Positions 46,333 through 56,910 of a stretch of 64,000 nucleotides of DNA are shown one piece after another. Numbering within the stretch: the stretch's first letter is position 1; every line of letters starts with the position of its first letter. This stretch comes from Hymenobacter yonginensis. GTDB lineage: Bacteria; Bacteroidota; Bacteroidia; Cytophagales; Hymenobacteraceae. Both the position numbers and the translations under genes were made by a program. Below the pieces are notes generated by a model. That model made no database searches and was not told the origin of the DNA. It saw only the letters and a program-made list of their open reading frames with translations. The stretch spans positions 620,001-684,000 of the forward strand of contig NZ_CP115396.1 in assembly GCF_027625995.1 (NCBI RefSeq), in the 5' to 3' direction.

Positions 46333-46388
46333 CGGCGGCCGCAGGGTTTTGCCCTAACTTGCGGGCCCTACCTTCCGTTCTGTTGCCC

Positions 46389-48440
46389 ATGATTCAGCTG
46401 TCGTTCCGTTTCTCTCTGGTTGCTTTCTTGATTTCATGGCTGTGCGCTGGCCCGCTTCAGGCCCAGTACGCCGAAACCGCCCCCGAGGAAAACGCCTGGT
46501 ACGGCATTGTGGCCCGCAGCAGCGGCCGCTCGCTCGATGTCAGCAAAGGCTCGCAGGACCCCGGCGCCGCGGTGGTGCAGTGGGAGTTCACCCATCCCAA
46601 CAGCCAGCAATGGCGCTTTGTGCGGGTGGCGGCCGGCAGCGACTACTACCGCATCGAGGCGCGCCACAGCGGCAAGTGCCTGACCGTAGACAAGCCCGAC
46701 GAAAACGCGCCGCTGGTGCAGCGGCCGTGGTCGGGCAGCTTCTACCAGCAGTGGAAGCTGGTGCCCGGCGGCCCCATTGGCAGCGTGCAGCTGGTGGTGC
46801 GCGGCAACGAGAAGTGCGCCGCCATTGCCAATTCCGACAAGTTCAACGGCACACCAGTGGTGGTGCAGCGCCCCCAAAACCGCGCTACGCAGCAATGGCG
46901 GCTGTTCAAGCTGCGCCTCAACGTGGATGCCTCGCAGCCTGGCTACGGCACTCCCGAGCCGGTGGCGGCCCTGAACACGCCCGGCAACGAACTGCACCCG
47001 GTGCTGGCCCCGGATGGCAGCGCGCTGTACTTCACCCGCACCCGCTTCGCCGGCAACACCGAGGGCAACACCGAGTCGGGCGACGCCTGGGTGAGTGCCT
47101 CCGCCGACCAGGGCCGCACCTGGGGCCCGGCCACCCGCCTCGACGCCCTCAATACGCCCCAGCACAACGGCGTGATGGCCGTGATGGGGCCGCAGGGCAG
47201 CCGGCTGCTGGTGCGTGGCACGTATGAGCGCGACAACAGCTTCCGCGACGAAAGCGCCTCAACAGTGGCGCGTAGCTTGGGCAAGGGCAGCCGGCCGGCT
47301 CCGCTGGAAATAGCCAACTACTACACCACCGGCCCGGCCACGTCGTTTTTTATGACGCCCGATGAGAAGGTGCTGCTGCTCTCGCTGGAGCGCAGCGACT
47401 CGCAGGGCGCCAACGACCTGTACGTCAGCCAGCCCGCCGCCGACGGCATCTGGAGTGAGCCGCGCAGCCTAGGCAGCGCCATCAACTCGCCGGGCTTCGA
47501 GTTTGCGCCCTGGCTGGCGCCCGATGGCAAAACGCTTTACTTCAGCTCCTACGGCCACGCTGGTTTCGGCAGCTCCGATATTTTCGTGAGCACCCGCCTC
47601 GACGACTCCTGGACGCGCTGGAGCGAGCCGCGTAACCTCGGCACGCCGCTCAACGGGCCCGGCTTCGACGCCTACTTCTCGCTCACGGCCGACGGCAAGC
47701 AGGCGTACTACGCCTCGGCCCGCACGCCCAACGGCCCCGCCGACCTCTACCGCACTGCCGCCGGCGTGCCCCCCACAGCCGCGCCTGCCGACTCTACGGC
47801 GCCGGCAGTGGCCGTGACGCCGCCCGCTGCCGCGCCGCGCACCCTGCTGACCGGCCGCGTGCTCAACGCCAAAACCCGCGAGCTGCTGGCTGCCGAAGTG
47901 AAAGTCATCCGGCTCGACAACGACATTGCCTTCAACGCCACCGGCCGCAGCGCGGCGGGCAGCGGCGCGTTTCAGCTGACGTTGCCAGCGGGCCGCTACC
48001 GGGTGGCGGCCACCAGCCCCGGCTTCCTCACGGCCACCGACACGGTACGCATGACTGGCTCGCGCACCATTGATCTGCTGCTGGTGCCGGCCGCCGTGGG
48101 CTCCAGCCTGGAGCTGCCCACGTTGATTTTCGCCCAGGGCAAGTACACCATGCTGCCGGCCTCCTACGCCGAGCTCAACCGCCTGGCCCGCACCCTGGCC
48201 GACAACCCCACCGTGAACATCCGTCTGGAAGGCCACACCGACAACCAGGGCAACGCCGACCTCAACCAGAAGCTCTCCGAAGACCGGGTGGCTGAGGTGC
48301 GCCGCTACCTCATCACGCGCGGCGTGCCCGAGCGCCGCCTCAGCGTGGTAGGCTACGGCGGCAGCAAGCCCCGCGCCAGCAACGACAAAGAAGAAACCCG
48401 CCGCCTCAACCGCCGCGTAGAATTCACGATTGTGAAGTAA
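46389..48440 (+). CDS. Ricin-lectin / PD40 / OmpA outer-membrane-associated protein
   Basis: A 683-residue exported protein. After the signal peptide (ending LQAQ) come a ricin-type beta-trefoil region (about 35-180; repeated QQWRF, QQWKL, QQWRL), PD40/WD40-like beta-propeller repeats (about 205-450; LAPDGSALYFTR, LAPDGKTLYFSS, LTADGKQAYYAS), a carboxypeptidase-like domain (about 475-560) and a C-terminal OmpA peptidoglycan-binding domain (LEGHTDNQGNADLNQKLSED). The last three occur together in many Bacteroidota envelope proteins; the N-terminal lectin is the unusual addition. Probably links peptidoglycan with a surface or sugar ligand. Confidence 0.85.
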   Translation: MIQLSFRFSLVAFLISWLCAGPLQAQYAETAPEENAWYGIVARSSGRSLDVSKGSQDPGAAVVQWEFTHPNSQQWRFVRVAAGSDYYRIEARHSGKCLTVDKPDENAPLVQRPWSGSFYQQWKLVPGGPIGSVQLVVRGNEKCAAIANSDKFNGTPVVVQRPQNRATQQWRLFKLRLNVDASQPGYGTPEPVAALNTPGNELHPVLAPDGSALYFTRTRFAGNTEGNTESGDAWVSASADQGRTWGPATRLDALNTPQHNGVMAVMGPQGSRLLVRGTYERDNSFRDESASTVARSLGKGSRPAPLEIANYYTTGPATSFFMTPDEKVLLLSLERSDSQGANDLYVSQPAADGIWSEPRSLGSAINSPGFEFAPWLAPDGKTLYFSSYGHAGFGSSDIFVSTRLDDSWTRWSEPRNLGTPLNGPGFDAYFSLTADGKQAYYASARTPNGPADLYRTAAGVPPTAAPADSTAPAVAVTPPAAAPRTLLTGRVLNAKTRELLAAEVKVIRLDNDIAFNATGRSAAGSGAFQLTLPAGRYRVAATSPGFLTATDTVRMTGSRTIDLLLVPAAVGSSLELPTLIFAQGKYTMLPASYAELNRLARTLADNPTVNIRLEGHTDNQGNADLNQKLSEDRVAEVRRYLITRGVPERRLSVVGYGGSKPRASNDKEETRRLNRRVEFTIVK

Positions 48441-49983: not shown

Positions 49984-51054
49984 TCAGGACCCGCGCTTCC
50001 AGATGAAGCCGTCCAGCACGTAGTGCGTGGCCTGGGGCAGGGCCAGCAGCGGCACCAGCAGCGTGAGGCCCCAGGCGTCGGATACGGTCGGCAGCTGCTG
50101 AAACCACCCGAACACGCCGGCATGCTCGCGCCACACCAGCCCGTCCCAGAGGCCCTCTTCCAGTAGCGCCAGCCCAGCCAGCACGCCCAGAAACAGGGCC
50201 ACGCCGTAGCGCCCGTGCCACCAGGCCCGCGCCGCCGGAGCCGTAGTGGGCGCCGGCTCACTGGCCGCCCACACCAGCGCCAGGTACGGAATGCCGTGCG
50301 CCACCACGTTGAGTAGGGTAAAGGTCAGGTCGCCGTTGAAGAGCACGATGCCGACGTACCATGATGCGGCCGTGCCGAGCAACAGCAGGTTGCGGGGCCA
50401 GTTGACGACACTCGAGCGGCGCCACAGCCACAGCTCTTTGATGGCGTAAGCAGTCAGCAGGGCCAGGTACAGGCCGGTCAGCAGCTGGCGGCCGGCTGGC
50501 CAGTCGGCTTGCACGAAGTCGCCGGGCACGAACCAGTTGAAGTGGCGCCCCGGCGCCAGGTGCCACCACAGCAGCGGGTAGAGCGTGGCAGCGTAAATCA
50601 GCACCGTGTCGAGGTGGCGGGCGAGGGGCGGGGCGGGCTCGTGGCGGGCATAGAGGCGCAGGAAGCCGTACTGCTGGCGCACGAAGTGAAACACGGCCGC
50701 GTAGGCCAGCACCCGCCAGAACCACAGCGCGCCGCCCAGCCCGTACAAGGCCACGCCGGCCGCGTAACAACCTAGCGGCACCGTCCACAGCAGCGTGCGG
50801 AACCGCTGCCGCCGCGCCCAATCGAAATAGGTACGAAACAGGGTGCTGTACACGTGCGCCACATCTACCAGCACCACCAGCGCCACCCAGGCCCACACTG
50901 GCATCTGGGTGGTGGTGCGGGCCGTGGTGGGCAGGGCCGCCACGGCCGCCAGCGCCAGAAACGGCGGCCCCAGAATCCAGAGTCCATCAAACGCCGCAGA
51001 GCGAATCCAGGGCTGGCGGCGGGGCGCAACGGCAGGCGGTGACAGTACGGGCAT
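49984..51054 (-). CDS. Histidine-motif multipass membrane protein of the polyamine cluster
   Basis: A 356-residue membrane protein with about nine hydrophobic helices. Conserved-looking His motifs lie in or beside helices: DVAHVYSTLFRTY (H67), FHFVRQQYGFLRLY (H123), NVVAHGIPYLALVW and QATHYVLDGFIWKR near the C-terminus. Such spacing suggests a membrane metal site, as in desaturases or carotenoid-cleaving Brp/Blh proteins, but I cannot match a family. It is the last gene of the polyamine-type cluster, 71 bases after the FAD oxidoreductase, whose substrate it might share. Confidence 0.75.
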   Translation of the reverse strand: MPVLSPPAVAPRRQPWIRSAAFDGLWILGPPFLALAAVAALPTTARTTTQMPVWAWVALVVLVDVAHVYSTLFRTYFDWARRQRFRTLLWTVPLGCYAAGVALYGLGGALWFWRVLAYAAVFHFVRQQYGFLRLYARHEPAPPLARHLDTVLIYAATLYPLLWWHLAPGRHFNWFVPGDFVQADWPAGRQLLTGLYLALLTAYAIKELWLWRRSSVVNWPRNLLLLGTAASWYVGIVLFNGDLTFTLLNVVAHGIPYLALVWAASEPAPTTAPAARAWWHGRYGVALFLGVLAGLALLEEGLWDGLVWREHAGVFGWFQQLPTVSDAWGLTLLVPLLALPQATHYVLDGFIWKRGS

Positions 51055-51125
51055 GATGGCAGAAAACCAGAAGGTGGCCGAAAATACGGCTTTTTGAACA
51101 GGCTGGTGGGTAGAAATCGGCGTGC

Positions 51126-52766
51126 CTAACTGGCCGCCAGCACCTCCCCGGCAGCGCGCAGCCCCTGGTAGAAGCCTTCCTCGAAGATGGACATGCCACT
51201 GAGGTCAGTGTGGGCGAAAAACAGCTTATGCTGCCAGGGCTGCGCGGCCGCCGGCCGGGCCACACCCCACACGAACCCGGGCGTGGGCGCCACCATGCCG
51301 TGGCCCCACACCCACACGTCGGCGCGCTGCACTAAAGGCGTGAGGCCGGGATGGGCGGTTTCCAGCTCGGTGAGGGCGCGGCGCACCCATTCGTCATAGC
51401 TGGTTTGGTAGGCCTGGCGGCGGGCCGCAATGGGGTCAGCGGCGGGCAGCGGCAGATACCAGGTGAGCACCAGCAGCTCGGCTCCGGGCTGGCGCAGCTC
51501 CTGGTGGCGGGCACTTACGTAGCCCACCGAAGCGGTGCCGTAGAGCACGTTGTCCCAGCTTAGCGGCTGGCCGGGGCCTTGCGGCAGCTCCGTCACGGTC
51601 AGGTTCACGACCACCCACGGCGCCCGGTGGCAGGGCAGGGCGCGGTGCGCGGCGGCGGGCAGCGTGGTCAGCAGCCGCTCGGTGATGAACAGCGGCGTGG
51701 CTATGATGACGCGGCGCGCCTGCACGCGGGTGCTGCGGTGCTGCACCACGTCGTAGCAATCCACGGCCAAACCCTCAGCGGTGTCGTGCAAAGCGTAGGC
51801 GACGGTGTTGGGCAGGATGGGGGAGGTGGCCTGGCGGCGCAGCTGCTCGGCCAGGAAGCCGTTGCCCTCGGGCCAGGTCAGCACGTCGGCGGCGGTGGCG
51901 TTGTGGGCGCGGCCCTTGCGCGCCGCAAAGTAGTGCAGCCCCGCCCACGCCGACACCTGGGCCGTGGTGGCGCCGTAGTCGTCCTGGCAGCTGTAGTTGA
52001 GGTACCAGCGCAGGTGCGGGCTGCTGAAGCCCTGTGCGTCCAGGTAGGCGTCAAACGGCTGCTCGTCGAGGCGCTGAAACTGCGGGTCCTGGGAGCATTC
52101 CTGCACCGGAATCCGAAAGGCGTCGCGCCCATCCTGCCCCACAGCTTTGCGCAACTCCTCAATCAGCTGGAAGAAGCGGGTAATCTGCTGCTTTTCCTCG
52201 GCGGGCACGCCCAGCTCCGGCACCAGGCCGTTTTGCCATTGACCGCGCAGGTACAGGCGTTCCTCGGGGTCGTGGCAGAGGTGGTACTCGTTGTAGATGG
52301 GCAGGCCCGAGGCTGGGTGCGTGCCGGTGATGACGCTGGCTTCCTGCAGAAACCCCAGCAGCGCGTGGTTGCGCGGGTCGGGCACGGGCAGGTAGTGGGC
52401 GCCCCAGGGGTAGGCGGCGCTGGCGTTGCGGCCGGCGCGGGAGTTGCCGCCGGGCGCTTCATCCAGCTCCACCAGCAGCACCTGCTCGGGGCGCAAGCCT
52501 TGGCGCTGCAGCTCGCGCCGGGCCGCCAGACCGGCAATGCCGCCGCCCACAATCAGCACATCCACGGTCTGGGTGCGGGTGGGCGCGGGCAGGCGGGCGG
52601 AGTCGCGCAGGAGGTGGCCGGTGGCGTGGTTGGCGCCGTGCAGACTGCCCCGGATGTGGCTGCGCCCGGTGCCCGGCGCGCAGGAGTGCAGCCCCGCCAG
52701 CGGCGCCAGCAGCAGCCCCGCCCCACTCAGCGCGGCCCGTTGCAGAAAGTGTCGGCGGGAAGACAT
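51126..52766 (-). CDS. Tat-exported FAD-dependent amine-oxidase-like protein
   Basis: A 546-residue flavoprotein. The N-terminus SSRRHFLQRAALSGAGLLL is a twin-arginine signal, followed by a possible lipobox-like LHSC. The Rossmann FAD motif VLIVGGGIAGLAARRELQRQ begins near residue 68, and further flavin contacts (GGNSRAGRNASAAYPWGAHY) and a C-terminal TDLSGMSIFEEGFYQG segment fit flavin-containing amine oxidases. Export by Tat implies that it folds with FAD inside and acts in the periplasm. The context (spermidine synthase, SpeD) suggests a polyamine or related amine as substrate; unproven. Confidence 0.82.
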   Translation of the reverse strand: MSSRRHFLQRAALSGAGLLLAPLAGLHSCAPGTGRSHIRGSLHGANHATGHLLRDSARLPAPTRTQTVDVLIVGGGIAGLAARRELQRQGLRPEQVLLVELDEAPGGNSRAGRNASAAYPWGAHYLPVPDPRNHALLGFLQEASVITGTHPASGLPIYNEYHLCHDPEERLYLRGQWQNGLVPELGVPAEEKQQITRFFQLIEELRKAVGQDGRDAFRIPVQECSQDPQFQRLDEQPFDAYLDAQGFSSPHLRWYLNYSCQDDYGATTAQVSAWAGLHYFAARKGRAHNATAADVLTWPEGNGFLAEQLRRQATSPILPNTVAYALHDTAEGLAVDCYDVVQHRSTRVQARRVIIATPLFITERLLTTLPAAAHRALPCHRAPWVVVNLTVTELPQGPGQPLSWDNVLYGTASVGYVSARHQELRQPGAELLVLTWYLPLPAADPIAARRQAYQTSYDEWVRRALTELETAHPGLTPLVQRADVWVWGHGMVAPTPGFVWGVARPAAAQPWQHKLFFAHTDLSGMSIFEEGFYQGLRAAGEVLAAS

Positions 52767-52809
52767 TTTTTAGTGCTTGGTGCTTAGTTGTTAGTGCTTA
52801 GGGAATAGG

Positions 52810-52943
52810 CACGGTGTAGAGACGCAATATTTCGCGTCTCGTCGTTGCTGAGGTTGGCCGTTCTACGCCGTCGTTGCTGATTGCTGGCCGTTGTATGCCG
52901 CCGTTCAACGACGAGACTCCAACTATTGCCTCTCTACACCGTG
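52810..52943. repeat. Inverted repeat between the oxidase and spermidine synthase-like genes
   Basis: The arms 52810-52847 and 52906-52943 are imperfect 38-base reverse complements; CACGGTGTAGAGA and CTCGTCGTTG ends match exactly. The centre has three more copies of GCCGTyGTTGC-like sequence. A half copy is at about 5083-5115. It lies inside the polyamine cluster and may reduce read-through into the oxidase gene. Confidence 0.75.
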
Positions 52944-52973
52944 CCTAAGCCCCAGGCCCTAAACCCTAAAAAT

Positions 52974-54536
52974 TCAATGCGTGTACGGCCCCCAGTCTTC
53001 CTCAAAATAGCGGACCAGGGCCTGGTTGTTGAGCTGATTGATATCGGTGGGGACTTCGGCCATGTCGGGTGGGAAGTCCAGCATCTGGCGGATGGTGACG
53101 GGCGTGACGTAGCGCAGGCCGCGCGGCAGCGGACCGGCGTCGGGGCGCCAGTGGGCGTTTTCGCCCGCCAGTACGTAGCCCCATTCGCCAAAGGAAGGCA
53201 CGTAGCAATGGTAGGGCGTGGTGTGGAAGCCGGCCGCCTGCAGCGTGTGCGCAATGCACCAGAAAGACTGCCGCGCCACGTAGGGCGAGGTGCTTTGCAC
53301 CACCAGCTTACCGCCCGGCGCCAGCAGCCGGTGCAACTCCTGGTAGAACGCCGCCGAGTACAGCTTGCCGATGGAGTAGTTGGCCGGGTCCGGGAAGTCG
53401 ATGATCAGGCAGTCGTAGCGGGTGGTGTCCTGGCGCACCCACTGGTAGGCGTCGCCGTTGATGACTTCCACCCGGGGGCTGAAAAAGGCGCGCTTGTTCA
53501 GGGCCGTCAGCAGCTGATTCTGCTTGAATAGCTGAGTCATGCCCGCGTCCAGGTCCACGAGGCGGATTTTCAGCTGCGGGTACTTGAGCAGCTCGCGCAC
53601 CGCCAGGCCGTCGCCGCCGCCCAGCACCAGCACGCGGCGCGCCTTGGGCAGGGCTTGCATGGCGGGGTGCACCAGGGCCTCGTGGTAGCGGTACTCGTCC
53701 TGGGAGCTGAACTGCAGGTTGCCGTTCAGAAACAGGCGCAGCTCGCGCTGGTTTTTGGTGAGTACGATGCGCTGATACTGCGTGCTTTTGGCGTAAATCA
53801 CTTGGTCCTGAAAGGCCAGGGTTTCGGTGTAGCGCTGGATGCGGCCGGCGTAGGCGAACGTGACGGCCAGCGCCAGCAGCGCCACGCCCATCAGGGCGGC
53901 GAAGCCGCGGCGGTAGGGGCGGGTTTCGGGGAAGCGGTACAGCGCCACGGCCGCCACCACCACGTTCAGCGTGCCAAACAGCAGCGACGTGCGCATCAGC
54001 CCCAGCTGCGGCACCAGCACCAATGGGAAAATCAATGAGGCCAGCAGCGCCCCGATGTAGTCGACGGTGAACACGCGCGACACTAGGTCCTTGAACTCGT
54101 AGCGGTTTTCCAGAATCCGCATCAGCAGCGGAATTTCCAGCCCCACCAGAATGCCCGTGAGGCCCACCAGCGCGTACAGAATCAGCCGGAACGAGGCTAC
54201 GTATTCGAACAGCACGAACAGCAGCGGCGCCGAAAAGCCGCCCACCAGCCCCACCAGAATTTCCAGCTGGATAAACCACTTCAGCAGCGGCCCGCCCAGG
54301 TACCTCGACAGCCACGAGCCTACGCCCATCGAAAACAGGTAGGCCCCGATGATGGTGGAAAACTGCGTGACCGAGTCGCCGAGCAGGTACGAGGCCAGCG
54401 TGCCCGCAATCAACTCGTAAATCAGCCCGCAGGTGGCAATGACGAACACCGAGCCCAGCAACAGCACCGACTGCGCCTCCTGCCGCGCCGTGCCGCGCCG
54501 CACCGGTCCGGGCGCTTCGGCGGTGGCGTTACCCAT
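52974..54536 (-). CDS. Membrane-fused spermidine synthase-like aminopropyltransferase
   Basis: A 520-residue fusion: seven or so membrane helices (residues about 25-230) followed by a spermidine-synthase fold. The SAM-binding motif VLVLGGGDGLAVRELLKY (near residue 300), the acidic VDLDAG, NGDAYQW and the catalytic IIDFPDPANYSIGKLYSAAFY are present. The conserved DSSDP-type loop is DFPDP, still with two Asp. It probably transfers an aminopropyl group, or a related group, at the membrane. Its start overlaps the end of the DUF350 gene by eight bases. Confidence 0.88.
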   Translation of the reverse strand: MGNATAEAPGPVRRGTARQEAQSVLLLGSVFVIATCGLIYELIAGTLASYLLGDSVTQFSTIIGAYLFSMGVGSWLSRYLGGPLLKWFIQLEILVGLVGGFSAPLLFVLFEYVASFRLILYALVGLTGILVGLEIPLLMRILENRYEFKDLVSRVFTVDYIGALLASLIFPLVLVPQLGLMRTSLLFGTLNVVVAAVALYRFPETRPYRRGFAALMGVALLALAVTFAYAGRIQRYTETLAFQDQVIYAKSTQYQRIVLTKNQRELRLFLNGNLQFSSQDEYRYHEALVHPAMQALPKARRVLVLGGGDGLAVRELLKYPQLKIRLVDLDAGMTQLFKQNQLLTALNKRAFFSPRVEVINGDAYQWVRQDTTRYDCLIIDFPDPANYSIGKLYSAAFYQELHRLLAPGGKLVVQSTSPYVARQSFWCIAHTLQAAGFHTTPYHCYVPSFGEWGYVLAGENAHWRPDAGPLPRGLRYVTPVTIRQMLDFPPDMAEVPTDINQLNNQALVRYFEEDWGPYTH

Positions 54537-54744
54537 GAATGGCCGAGCTGATAATCAACGCCACGGCAATCATAAACGCCGCGCCCAGAATGGCCAGGGC
54601 CGTGTTGTGCTCCTCCACAATCTCCTTCCAGAGCATGCGGGGCGAGAGTTTTTCGATGACAACGAACGACAGCACCAGAATCAGAATGCCCAGCACCGAA
54701 TAGATGACGGAGGCAATGATAAGCTTGAAGTTGAGGTATTCCAT
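54529..54744 (-). CDS. DUF350-family membrane protein
   Basis: A 71-residue protein with two membrane helices (IIASVIYSVLGILILVLSFV and NTALAILGAAFMIAVALIIS), matching one DUF350 repeat; many relatives have two or more. E. coli YjfL is a member, encoded with PspA-like and glutathionylspermidine-synthase-like genes, so the link with polyamine enzymes recurs. The ATG at 54744 is used; the upstream frame is repeat-derived. It overlaps the spermidine synthase-like gene. Confidence 0.85.
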   Translation of the reverse strand: MEYLNFKLIIASVIYSVLGILILVLSFVVIEKLSPRMLWKEIVEEHNTALAILGAAFMIAVALIISSAIHG

Positions 54745-54761
54745 GAATCTAGGTGATTTTT

Positions 54762-55011
54762 GGTGATGAGGTGATGAGGTGAATGGGGATGAGGTGACAC
54801 ATGCTAGGGGAGTGGTATGGGGGGATGAGGTGACACGTGGTAGGCAGAGTCTGTGCGACTTTGAGTGGGGTGCTGTGACGACGCCGGTGAAAAAATGATA
54901 GCCCGGCTGATTGGCTCCGCAGACGAGCCCAACTCTGCACAGCCCTGTCACCCCATCACCTCATCCCCATTCACCCCATCACCTCATCCCAATTCACCTC
55001 ATCACCTAATT
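54762..55011. repeat. GA-rich inverted repeat inside the polyamine cluster
   Basis: GTGATGAGGTGATGAGGTGA-type sequence (about 54762-54840) and its C/T-rich complement CACCTCATCCCCATTCACCC (about 54946-55011) flank a 105-base non-coding centre. Same family as the outer arms at 30848-31153. The right arm ends at the stop codon of the small membrane protein gene. Confidence 0.78.
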
Positions 55012-55192
55012 ACTTATGATAAAATCGGGCGTGGCCGCCGCGGGAGCTGGTGGTGCGGCTGCCTTCGGGATTTTCGTTGTCGTCGCCGAGCAGGCGCACG
55101 CCGTTGAGGCCGGCCCACAGAAACACGCCGTAAATCAGCAGCGCCACCACCGCGTAGTAGCGGATGGCCGATAGGGAGCGGAGAAAGTCCAT
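55010..55192 (-). CDS. Small single-pass membrane protein of the polyamine cluster
   Basis: A 60-residue protein: one membrane helix (YYAVVALLIYGVFLWAGLN), then a polar, Arg/Ser-rich tail. It lies 12 bases after the DUF4178 gene and in the same direction as the cluster, so probably belongs to the same operon. No family recognised. Confidence 0.6.
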   Translation of the reverse strand: MDFLRSLSAIRYYAVVALLIYGVFLWAGLNGVRLLGDDNENPEGSRTTSSRGGHARFYHK

Positions 55193-55204
55193 AGGAAGCG
55201 GGCG

Positions 55205-56560
55205 TTAGGAGTTGTCGGTGGGGCCGTAGTCGCTGTTTTGCCAGCGGGTGGCGTCGTGGGAGTGGCGCCGCCAGTACTGCACGGCCGGGTACAGCGCCAG
55301 CAGCAGCAGCGCCAGTATCCCGTTGGATTGCAGCGGTGTGTGCTGGCTGGCCGTGAGGCGCAGCGGCAAATCCATGCCGTTTTCCGTGACGGGGTAGAGC
55401 GTGAGGTGGTAGCGGCCCGACGGGATGCCCGCCAGCGTGGCTTCCTGGTCGGTGTCGCCTTCGCGCCAGGTTTCGCCTTGCTCCACGCCGGTGTAGAACT
55501 CCAGGTTTTTGGTGAATTCGTAGCTCTGGCCGGTGCGCTCGTTTACCAGCGTCACGGGCACTTCCAGCCACTGGTTGTAGAGCGTTGTGGAGGCCAGCTC
55601 GAACTGCAGCGCCGCCGGCCCCGTCACCTCAAACGGCTTCGACACCAACACCGTGTTGCTGCCCGCGGCCATGGCCTCGGAGGCCGCCGGGCTCACCTCG
55701 CCGCCTGGCGACGCCCGGCCCGTGGAAAACTCCTCGCGCAGCAGCTGCTTTTCGGGTTTGATGAACAGCAGCGCCAGCTGCGTAAGTACCACCAGCAGCA
55801 TCATCAGCAAGCTGAAAGTGCGCAGCGTCGGCCAGGTAGTCTGGCCCGGCGCGGGTTGCACAGCGCCCACGCCACTGCGGTACGGCAATGAGTCGCGCGG
55901 CACGCCGAAAGCCGTGGCTACTTCGCCGGGTTCCAGATGTTCGCCCTTGTACCATTTTGCCGGGCCTTTGCCAGGTTCTTTCTCCCGTACCAGCATCCGA
56001 GGCGGCGCAATGTATTCGGTGATGGTCAGATGCGCATCGTCGCGAAAGTCCCAGTCGAACTCACCGGCCGCGTACAATACTCTCGGCTGATAGCTGTTGT
56101 AGATGTGGTAGTCGTCCTCCACCTCATCAATGTACGCGCCGCGGCCGGTAGCGTGGCCGATGACCCGGTAGTCGCGGCCGGCGGGCTCCAGCAGCAGCCA
56201 GTGACCCTCGTACACGGCCAGCTGGCAGTAAGCGCCCGTTTGCTCGTGGCGCAGCATATACTCCTGCCACTGGTAGGCGGCGTGTTTTTCGCGGCGCAGT
56301 TGGAAGCCCAGCACCCGGTAGGGCTGGCCCCGCAAGGTGCCTACCGTGCCCAGTGGCAGCATAATGGGCAGCGTGGAGTCGCCTTGAAACTTCCCCAGAA
56401 TCAGAGGTTTTGCGGCGCGGTCGTCGGCCTCGAAATAGGTGTGGCACTCCGGGCACACGAAAAAGGCGCTGTTGAGCTGGTCGAAGTAGGGCACGCTGTG
56501 CTGGCAGCGCGGGCACGGCAGCTGGGCCGGCGCGACAGGGGCGGTAGTGGTTTCGCTCAT
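55205..56560 (-). CDS. DUF4178-domain protein with zinc ribbon and membrane helices
   Basis: A 451-residue protein. It begins with a zinc ribbon (C16-x2-C19 and C36-x2-C39), continues with DUF4178-type beta-rich sequence (LGTVGTLRGQPYRVLGFQL, WQEYMLRH) that appears twice, then a membrane helix (TFSLLMMLLVVLTQLALLFI), an extracytoplasmic domain and a final helix (NGILALLLLALYPAVQYW). DUF4178 genes recur next to DUF350, SpeD and spermidine synthase-like genes in many bacteria. Biochemical role unknown; its start overlaps the end of the SpeD gene by four bases. Confidence 0.82.
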   Translation of the reverse strand: MSETTTAPVAPAQLPCPRCQHSVPYFDQLNSAFFVCPECHTYFEADDRAAKPLILGKFQGDSTLPIMLPLGTVGTLRGQPYRVLGFQLRREKHAAYQWQEYMLRHEQTGAYCQLAVYEGHWLLLEPAGRDYRVIGHATGRGAYIDEVEDDYHIYNSYQPRVLYAAGEFDWDFRDDAHLTITEYIAPPRMLVREKEPGKGPAKWYKGEHLEPGEVATAFGVPRDSLPYRSGVGAVQPAPGQTTWPTLRTFSLLMMLLVVLTQLALLFIKPEKQLLREEFSTGRASPGGEVSPAASEAMAAGSNTVLVSKPFEVTGPAALQFELASTTLYNQWLEVPVTLVNERTGQSYEFTKNLEFYTGVEQGETWREGDTDQEATLAGIPSGRYHLTLYPVTENGMDLPLRLTASQHTPLQSNGILALLLLALYPAVQYWRRHSHDATRWQNSDYGPTDNS

Positions 56561-56910
56561 CGGCGCACTTCCGTTTTGGTGAGTTCGGTGCCCTCGAAGA
56601 ACGAGAGTGTGGCGGCGTATAGCTGCCGGGCGCGGTCGGCGTTGTCGCGCTGGTAGTTGCTTAGAAACACGTCGAAGGTGGCGCGGCCGTGCTCGGGCCA
56701 GGTGTGGATGCTCAGGTGCGACTCGGTGAGGGCCAGCACGGCCGTAAACGAGCTATTCGGGAACCGGTGGTAGGCGGCGCCCACCTCCTGCAAGCCCAGC
56801 GCCGCCACCTGCGCCTCGAAGAAGCGGCGGCAGGCGTCCATATCGGTGAGAGGGCCGGCGGCGGCCGCAAAGGTGGCCAGCACGTGCAGGCCCGGGGAAT
56901 AGTCAGACAT
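56557..56910 (-). CDS. SpeD-like pyruvoyl-dependent decarboxylase (variant)
   Basis: A 117-residue proenzyme of the bacterial SpeD class. ALTESHLSIHTWPEHG contains the Glu63-Ser64 self-cleavage site, where Ser64 becomes the pyruvoyl group, and His69. In typical S-adenosylmethionine decarboxylases a Cys follows in VDVFTCG; here the equivalent is FDVFLSN, with Ser84 at the Cys position. SpeD homologues that lack AdoMetDC features have been reported to decarboxylate arginine or ornithine instead, so the substrate is open. The ATG at 56910 is chosen for similarity. First gene of the cluster. Confidence 0.85.
   Translation of the reverse strand: MSDYSPGLHVLATFAAAAGPLTDMDACRRFFEAQVAALGLQEVGAAYHRFPNSSFTAVLALTESHLSIHTWPEHGRATFDVFLSNYQRDNADRARQLYAATLSFFEGTELTKTEVRR

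Follow-up and report, generated by a model that had tools for sequence, protein, structure and literature searches.

Seven genes, all on the minus strand, occupy positions 49984-56910 of the window, the 64,000-nucleotide stretch of Hymenobacter yonginensis DNA that was analysed (Table 1). The list of open reading frames (ORFs) and the sequence agree on this arrangement, as a first-pass annotation had proposed. In gene order the intergenic gaps are -4, 12, 265, -8, 207 and 71 nt, and the values of -4 and -8 bear out the overlaps earlier reported at speD/DUF4178 and DUF350/synthase. The first-pass annotation counted the gene of the HK microprotein among the seven without describing its product. 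A single transcript is putative; the gaps of 265 nt (microprotein to DUF350) and 207 nt (synthase to oxidase) weigh against it. The cluster goes beyond chance, because the same gene order recurs in most of 80 loci, which are the best 80 of 525 confirmed relatives and not a random sample.

Table 1. Genes of the seven-gene locus, with positions in the window.
Gene or product	Position	Strand	Features
speD	56557..56910	-	117 aa; AdoMet-decarboxylase homologue, class 1b size; AdoMet_dc 5e-19
DUF4178 protein	55205..56560	-	451 aa; PF13785 6.6e-14
HK microprotein	55010..55192	-	60 aa; single helix; Gly/Ser tail with His-Lys end
DUF350 protein	54529..54744	-	71 aa; two helices; PF03994 2.9e-12
Membrane-fused aminopropyltransferase	52974..54536	-	520 aa; PF01564 Spermine_synth 1.3e-33
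Flavin amine oxidase, Tat (lipo)protein	51126..52766	-	546 aa; Amino_oxidase PF01593 2.2e-9
His membrane protein, multi-helix	49984..51054	-	356 aa; no named family

The set is fixed in many soil Bacteroidota, H. yonginensis included. A phylum sample of 345 genomes contains the synthase in 25, a strong oxidase match in 13 and a strong His-protein match in 10, and these occurrences are nested and adjacent: all 13 oxidases adjoin a membrane synthase and all 10 His proteins adjoin an oxidase, with gaps measured from one match to the next and not from gene to gene. Among the loci retrieved with the His protein (the best 80 of 525), the oxidase is present in 79 of 80 and the synthase in 78. The oxidase and His-protein genes are thus conserved neighbours of the core. 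Among 120 Hymenobacter genomes, 63 carry the synthase, every one of them together with SpeD and the oxidase, and only one genome lacking the synthase (G013) has SpeD or the oxidase, as remnants. At two loci, L041 and L042, the core and the HK protein occur without the oxidase and His protein, so those two genes are not indispensable. No additional ORF family of at least 110 aa in at least 5 genera lies beside the operon in the best 80 of 525 loci, shadow ORFs apart, and the PspA-type envelope-stress partner that had been suggested does not recur among such families. Recurrent ORF clusters on the opposite strand or in another frame, within the operon's own genes, were taken for shadow ORFs.

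The SpeD of the window scores 69.1 bits against PF02675 (cut-off 25; scored on a longer ORF) and does not reach the equivalog cut-off of NCBIfam TIGR03330 (62.2 versus 75.65 bits). In its motif ESHxxxHTWPE, S64 and H69 align with S63 and H68 of PDB 1tlu; we take these to be the pyruvoyl-forming serine and the neighbouring histidine. When aligned to 1tlu and 2iii, Ser84 stands at the position of Cys83 of 1tlu, the active-site cysteine. Serine replaces this cysteine in 71 of 73 rows of operon SpeD, and the cysteine is retained in 10 operon rows (L033-L042). Passages in PMC10407285 state that the active-site cysteine is needed for decarboxylation by SpeD, and that some SpeD homologues decarboxylate ornithine or arginine. 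The earlier designation as a pyruvoyl decarboxylase is modified by this lack of the usual catalytic cysteine; with serine in its place AdoMet decarboxylation by the operon enzyme may be weak or absent. SpeD is single in 62 of the 63 Hymenobacter genomes with the synthase. Where the operon has no speD (L134, L143, L153, L154 and L160), a Cys-type SpeD is encoded elsewhere in the genome in 5 of 5 searched, which argues that the job of the operon SpeD is to supply decarboxylated AdoMet (dcAdoMet).

The membrane-fused synthase scores 676.3 bits against the family model NF002956 (cut-off 472) and misses the cut-off of TIGR00417, speE (122.9 versus 249.55 bits). Its motifs DEYRYHEALVHP, GGGDG and DFPDP, presumably those of the donor and amine sites, have aligned counterparts in 6bq2 and 1uir and show conservation across 79 rows, so the synthase retains the aminopropyltransferase motifs; in ACL5 and 1uir, GGGEG and DLADP or DLTDP stand in place of GGGDG and DFPDP. 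The best PDB sequence matches are thermospermine synthase and polyamine aminopropyltransferase. In a tree of 67 rows, the 59 operon synthases form one clade with support 100/100, apart from 8 core-only sequences.

The loops of the synthase differ in charge. Mean K+R is 2.08 at the N-terminus, 0.00 in loop 1, 4.19 in loop 4 and 2.01 in loop 6, and the stretch after helix 7 has a net negative charge (79 clade rows). With the helix bounds chosen, loops 3 and 5 each have a length of two residues, and the topology argument is therefore carried by the N-terminus and loops 1, 4 and 6. The alternation corresponds to N-in with seven helices in the 79 clade rows and likewise in 14 core-only rows, in which the acidic character past helix 7 is less marked (K+R 2.21, D+E 2.57). 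Seven helices followed by a spermidine-synthase-type domain in the periplasm are accordingly predicted. With a periplasmic catalytic domain, dcAdoMet, rather than a finished product, would have to cross the membrane. We know of no precedent for dcAdoMet export, which a periplasmic aminopropyltransferase would need. The first-pass annotation had proposed synthesis, then export, then oxidation outside; a membrane system resembling polyamine enzymes stands, but this order does not sit well with a synthase domain that is itself predicted to be periplasmic. Bacterial homologues of a fungal membrane-aminopropyltransferase fusion are described in passages of PMC12803844 as uninvolved in spermidine or spermine synthesis, and from its architecture we infer that the window synthase belongs with those fusions.

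The HK microprotein marks the synthase clade of this operon. A search by position detected it at 98 of 103 operon-clade loci, and all 98 copies end in His-Lys. The count was drawn from 104 loci with a synthase of at least 600 bits, L080 being skipped because no DUF4178 was found; split-synthase loci such as L145 score below 600 bits and fall outside it. Candidates had a methionine start, 40-120 aa, a mean hydropathy above 1.3 and a start at most 260 nt away, and DUF350-like ends were dropped. The 103 loci are not independent, as many come from congeners and L030 and L082 are the same record. Five loci had no microprotein by position (L040, L136, L150, L153 and L160); a looser scan, itself demanding the HK ending, gave an ORF in all of these except L150. 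An HMM search had detected the microprotein in 44 of the best 80 of 525 loci, an undercount due to the hypervariable tail, and is superseded by the position count. The microprotein was not found beside the 14 core-only membrane synthases. It has no Pfam family above cut-off, and its identity with DltX finds no backing: PF12459 reached 10.9 bits (versus 25; E 0.33) in one scanned microprotein, and the window copy gave no match. Among 92 copies the N-terminal flank is the more positive in 73, the reverse holds in 3 and 16 are ties. These charges suggest an N-in/C-out orientation, with the tail facing the periplasm.

Pfam places the DUF4178 domain at residues 70-211, whereas the hydropathy peaks lie outside it, at about 255 and 423 (79 rows), so DUF4178 is not the membrane domain it had been called. 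The protein is built of cysteine pairs (four conserved residues, of zinc-ribbon type), the DUF4178 domain, a helix, an intervening domain and a second helix. The charge bias at the helix flanks is weak; it points to a probably periplasmic location of the domain between the helices. DUF350, which had been counted as a core member, is present here but went undetected in 12 of the 78 operons having both DUF4178 and the synthase.

The oxidase scores above the PF01593 cut-off and has a MAO/PAO fold of the monoamine/putrescine-oxidase type. Its structural matches include SpdH and putrescine oxidase, as well as protoporphyrinogen oxidase and others, and it is predicted to act on an amine. RR-x-[FL] is present near the start in 58 of 79 rows, a cysteine follows 12-32 residues past the RR in 60 of 79, and a strict lipobox occurs in 20 of 79. 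The start is thus of the Tat type, as first described, but resembles that of a Tat lipoprotein rather than of a simply exported enzyme. The His protein matches no Pfam or NCBIfam family. With 10 His in 356 residues, it hardly deserves the label His-rich, although five are invariant; the full invariant set is D64, H67, H123, H165, H253, H344 and D348 (55 rows). Its structure is predicted with a pLDDT of 91.4, and the invariant residues in its helices are a candidate metal or heme site. A Brp/Blh carotene dioxygenase was considered and rejected: 14 rows, searched up to E 5, gave no match to PF15461, and a shallow comparison of profiles that used five untrimmed rows of PF15461 gave a probability of 0.3%.

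We favor, with a probability of about 0.45, a self-contained envelope-modification operon in which a non-polyamine acceptor would be aminopropylated from dcAdoMet at the periplasmic face and then oxidized. SpeD would generate dcAdoMet in the cytoplasm, and delivery outward might use the transporter-like helices of the synthase. The synthase, whose chemistry is suggested by its motifs, would act on an acceptor that is not a free polyamine, a restriction taken from what is published on like fusions. The catalytic domain of the synthase, the HK tail and the inter-helix domain of the DUF4178 protein would all face the periplasm, as judged from charge bias, which is weakest for DUF4178. There the Tat-anchored oxidase would act on the product, yielding an aldehyde or an imine. 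The His protein, with its probable intramembrane metal or heme site, might speculatively finish the step or accept electrons. The order of these reactions is conjectural.

A bolder version, which we hold to be a long shot, has the aminopropyl groups received, or covalently relayed, by the His-Lys at the C-terminus of the microprotein. The synthase would then be a periplasmic protein aminopropyltransferase using exported dcAdoMet, and the oxidase would convert the added amine to an aldehyde that serves to cross-link the envelope or is passed on. In favor of this version, the HK tail follows the synthase clade even in L041 and L042, where the oxidase and His protein are missing, was not found beside the 14 core-only membrane synthases and, by charge, faces outward like the synthase domain; against it, so strictly kept a terminus may equally be a docking motif.

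AdoMet is a metabolite of the cytoplasm, which speaks for a more ordinary topology: a cytoplasmic synthase domain would aminopropylate a lipid or small amine, and the product would be flipped or exported through the transporter-like helices or DUF350 and oxidized outside. The apparent export of the oxidase fits this scheme, and passages in PMC11237479 term the N-terminal part of such fusions transporter-like. The N-in, seven-helix charge pattern, shared by clade and core-only rows, and the operons in which DUF350 was not found run counter to it, and we consider it rather unlikely. A neofunctionalized SpeD, decarboxylating ornithine, arginine or another substrate and so giving the synthase a different donor or acceptor, would account for the serine in 71 of 73 rows and has precedent in the homologues of PMC10407285. 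It would, however, leave most genomes without a source of dcAdoMet, given the single SpeD in 62 of 63, and it agrees poorly with the Cys-type SpeD in otherwise similar operons (L033-L039) or elsewhere in genomes whose operon has no speD; we judge it improbable. Less credible still is that the operon simply makes spermidine or thermospermine and has a catabolic oxidase as an accessory, which would be a polyamine system of the cell surface resembling the SpeD2-SpeE2/SpdH case of Pseudomonas aeruginosa discussed in part of PMC11107197. The NCBIfam name (polyamine aminopropyltransferase), the best PDB matches of the synthase and the presence of SpdH and putrescine oxidase among the structural matches of the oxidase agree with it. 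The missed speE cut-off and the account of like fusions in passages of PMC12803844 do not, and this reading would give no reason for a dedicated microprotein and His protein.

The variant combines a full, compact gene set with a marker microprotein, a surprising topology prediction and a candidate acceptor some 60 residues long, and bears on what DUF350/DUF4178/membrane-aminopropyltransferase clusters do. It would also account for SpeD genes in bacteria that perhaps do not make spermidine that way, which lead polyamine annotation into error. In the D-alanylation (dlt) operon, DltX is likewise a very small protein with one helix and a conserved C-terminal motif that faces outward, next to a membrane transferase. 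The HK microprotein would be like it in working only, without homology and with a different motif and chemistry. If the acceptor reading were true, proteins would be aminopropylated outside the cytoplasm, in a way somewhat DltX-like in working and with a chemistry that resembles deoxyhypusine or silaffin modification. Li et al. (2019, Biochem J 476:2579), cited in PMC12803844, reportedly described MFS/spermidine-synthase fusions with class 1b AdoMetDC and DUF350, and proposed an acceptor other than putrescine. Synthase architecture and SpeD linkage are the same as here, whereas the oxidase, the His protein, the HK microprotein, a SpeD of Ser type and a periplasmic topology are not known to be part of that account. 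From the putrescine oxidase/monoamine oxidase family the Hymenobacter oxidase differs in being a Tat (lipo)protein, with 18% identity and tied matches that do not predict a substrate. The CesT/Tir-PspA operon, as presented in parts of PMC11237479, shares the membrane-fused synthase, DUF350 and DUF4178, but no PspA/CesT partner recurs beside the Hymenobacter-type operon (best 80 of 525 loci), which adds SpeD, the HK microprotein, the Tat oxidase and the His protein. The 100/100 synthase clade likewise stands apart from the 8 core-only sequences, among which that paper's own example is not included. The core of SpeD, DUF4178, DUF350 and membrane-fused synthase is already in print; new are the distinct synthase clade with its HK microprotein, the periplasmic catalytic domain predicted from loop charge, and the Ser-type, usually sole, SpeD.

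The first-pass annotation had read seven genes on the minus strand of the window as a polyamine-like membrane system, and its gene reading is correct. Their order is listed in the table below, with other features that have coordinates. The synthase, a membrane-fused protein of the spermidine synthase type and a predicted aminopropyltransferase, is 99% identical to that of G001, the closest genome compared. The genus is Hymenobacter: SpeD coordinates in the genomes of named Hymenobacter loci L142, L150 and L151 agree with those in genus members G075, G078 and G068. The palindromic element has inverted arms of 33-35 nt that are complementary at 91-97%, and a 13-mer from it (at most one mismatch) occurs in 10 copies in the window, where chance predicts 0.04; three of these copies are near 31.1 kb. 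The same junction in the nearest relative (L050) also holds a palindrome, but a different one. Several Hymenobacter loci also have a gene like the lectin/PD40/OmpA neighbor close to the operon.

Features of the operon, its surroundings and two other Hymenobacter genomes
Feature	Location	Strand	Description	Basis
Seven-gene operon	window 56910-49984	-	in order: speD, DUF4178 protein, 60-aa membrane microprotein, DUF350, synthase, flavin amine oxidase, His protein	ORFs, sequence, profile matches
Palindromic repeat element	window 54743-55013		between microprotein and DUF350 genes	
Ricin-type lectin + PD40 propeller + OmpA gene	window 46359-48440		operon neighbor	domain matches
Solitary full-length His gene	G128, L061:8238-9332		usual flanking genes either side	
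Second SpeD-like match	G025:C21:87900-88088		sole such genome among 120 Hymenobacter	

Among 120 Hymenobacter genomes, the synthase is present in 63, the flavin amine oxidase and SpeD in 64 each, and the His protein, a membrane protein with multiple helices that matches no named family, in 68 (E 1e-5). All 63 synthase-bearing genomes have both oxidase and SpeD, in a set comparison that counts genomes as they stand, kinship included. The only genome with these two and no synthase, G013, retains the oxidase, His gene and SpeD as remnants. The His protein is absent from one of the 63 synthase genomes, G072, where the synthase also contains a stop, and is found without a synthase in six genomes, as partial or interrupted remnants in five (G013, G041, G054, G096 and G097) and at full length in G128, where the remaining operon genes were looked for and not found. 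Both the synthase and the His gene are split in G106. The operon is in decay or lost in several genomes (L059 in G013, L060 in G041, L076 in G054, L058 in G106 and L075 in G072); a His-gene remnant is all that was found of it in G041 and G054.

The phylum sample comprised 345 genomes, searched at E 1e-40 for the synthase (25 genomes), 1e-20 for the oxidase (15 genomes; 13 strong matches at E < 1e-100, two weak) and 1e-3 for the His protein (15 genomes; 10 strong, five remote). Measured between match ends, the distance to the synthase is 4-764 nt for every one of the 13 strong oxidases, and the distance to the oxidase is 1-78 nt for every one of the 10 strong His genes. The parts are nested: a strong His protein is accompanied by the oxidase in every case, and a strong oxidase by the synthase; a strong oxidase match is lacking from 12 of the 25 genomes that have a synthase. 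A contig scan over genomes of 84,980 species returned at least 525 relatives of the His protein. The best 80 of these are mainly from Pedobacter, Mucilaginibacter, Chitinophaga, Dyadobacter, Spirosoma, Hymenobacter, Pontibacter and their kin, with single MAGs labeled Acidobacteria, Melainabacteria, Leptospiraceae and Verrucomicrobia. Partners at these best 80 loci are the oxidase (79), synthase (78), DUF4178 (78), SpeD (72) and DUF350 (66); the two loci without a synthase, L113 and L155, are short contigs. Of the 78 loci that have both DUF4178 and synthase, 12 yielded no DUF350, either as a separate gene or fused to the synthase. Apart from shadow ORFs inside the operon, no further ORF family of at least 110 aa in at least five genera was found at the best 80 loci. 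Co-occurrence of the oxidase and His genes with the core, which the first-pass annotation had named as a test, is borne out.

Some operons (L095, L103, L134, L139, L143, L153 and L154) carry DUF4178 matches in duplicate, and L095 repeats the microprotein and DUF350 as well. Pontibacter-type genomes (L162-L165) have, separate from the operon, a single ORF that joins a SpeD of the Cys type to a synthase domain. Solitary membrane proteins with the D..H, H..RQ.YG and HY..D motifs of the His protein form a broader family (L070-L073); an NCBIfam scan of L070 and L073 gave no name.

Of 67 synthases chosen for a tree, which is rooted at the midpoint and has several long branches outside the main group, 59 group together with 100/100 support; the length of their branch is 1.37 changes per column. 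This group takes in all 54 rows with oxidase and His protein, three with the oxidase only (L031, L032 and L040) and two with neither (L041 and L042); the eight rows outside it have neither. The tree departs from the species in places, with Dyadobacter L107 amid Chitinophagaceae and Taibaiella scattered over several positions, which suggests that the operon was transferred as a unit.

The microprotein (HK microprotein) is a single-helix protein ending in His-Lys. When its ORF was chosen by position, ending ignored, at the 103 operon-clade loci (synthase match of at least 600 bits, kinship not removed), it was found at 98, and every one of these proteins (97 distinct) has His-Lys as its last two residues. 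A variable Gly/Ser-rich stretch precedes this ending, which often reads Phe-Tyr-His-Lys. Among 5547 M-start ORFs of 40-120 aa at the same loci, 106 end this way, 99 of them on the synthase strand and at most 900 nt upstream of the synthase, the other seven elsewhere. The microprotein is present at two loci with neither oxidase nor His protein (L041 and L042), and was found beside none of the 14 core-only synthases (other membrane synthases, from outside the operon clade). A Pfam scan gave no family at its cut-off. Flank charges favor an N-in/C-out orientation (73 for versus 3 against, with 16 ties; n = 92).

Mean K+R over 79 synthases (the window and 78 loci) is 2.08 at the N-terminus and 0.00, 0.63, 0.03, 4.19, 0 and 2.01 in loops 1 to 6, loops 3 and 5 being too short to count in the charge argument; past helix 7, K+R is 1.00 and D+E 2.97. 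The 14 core-only synthases alternate likewise (2.93, then 0, 0.79, 0, 2.50, 0 and 2.07), with K+R 2.21 and D+E 2.57 past helix 7. The simplest reading of these sequences is a synthase predicted to be N-in, with seven helices and its catalytic domain outside. Helix-flank charges of the DUF4178 protein are weak, the clearest being K+R 3.06 past the second helix. Our best model would move the chemistry to the periplasmic face and would make the HK microprotein a central part.

In titles and abstract openings of the open-access literature on DUF4178, DUF350 or membrane-fused synthases, the oxidase/His/HK set was not found described. PMC11237479 places a fused synthase, DUF350 and DUF4178 in PspA operons, and SpeD with a polyamine oxidase in other operons. 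Polyamine enzymes of P. aeruginosa are discussed in PMC11107197, and ornithine or arginine appears as a substrate for SpeD homologs in PMC10407285. According to PMC12803844, citing Li 2019, a fungal membrane-APT fusion has bacterial homologs that take no part in making spermidine or spermine.
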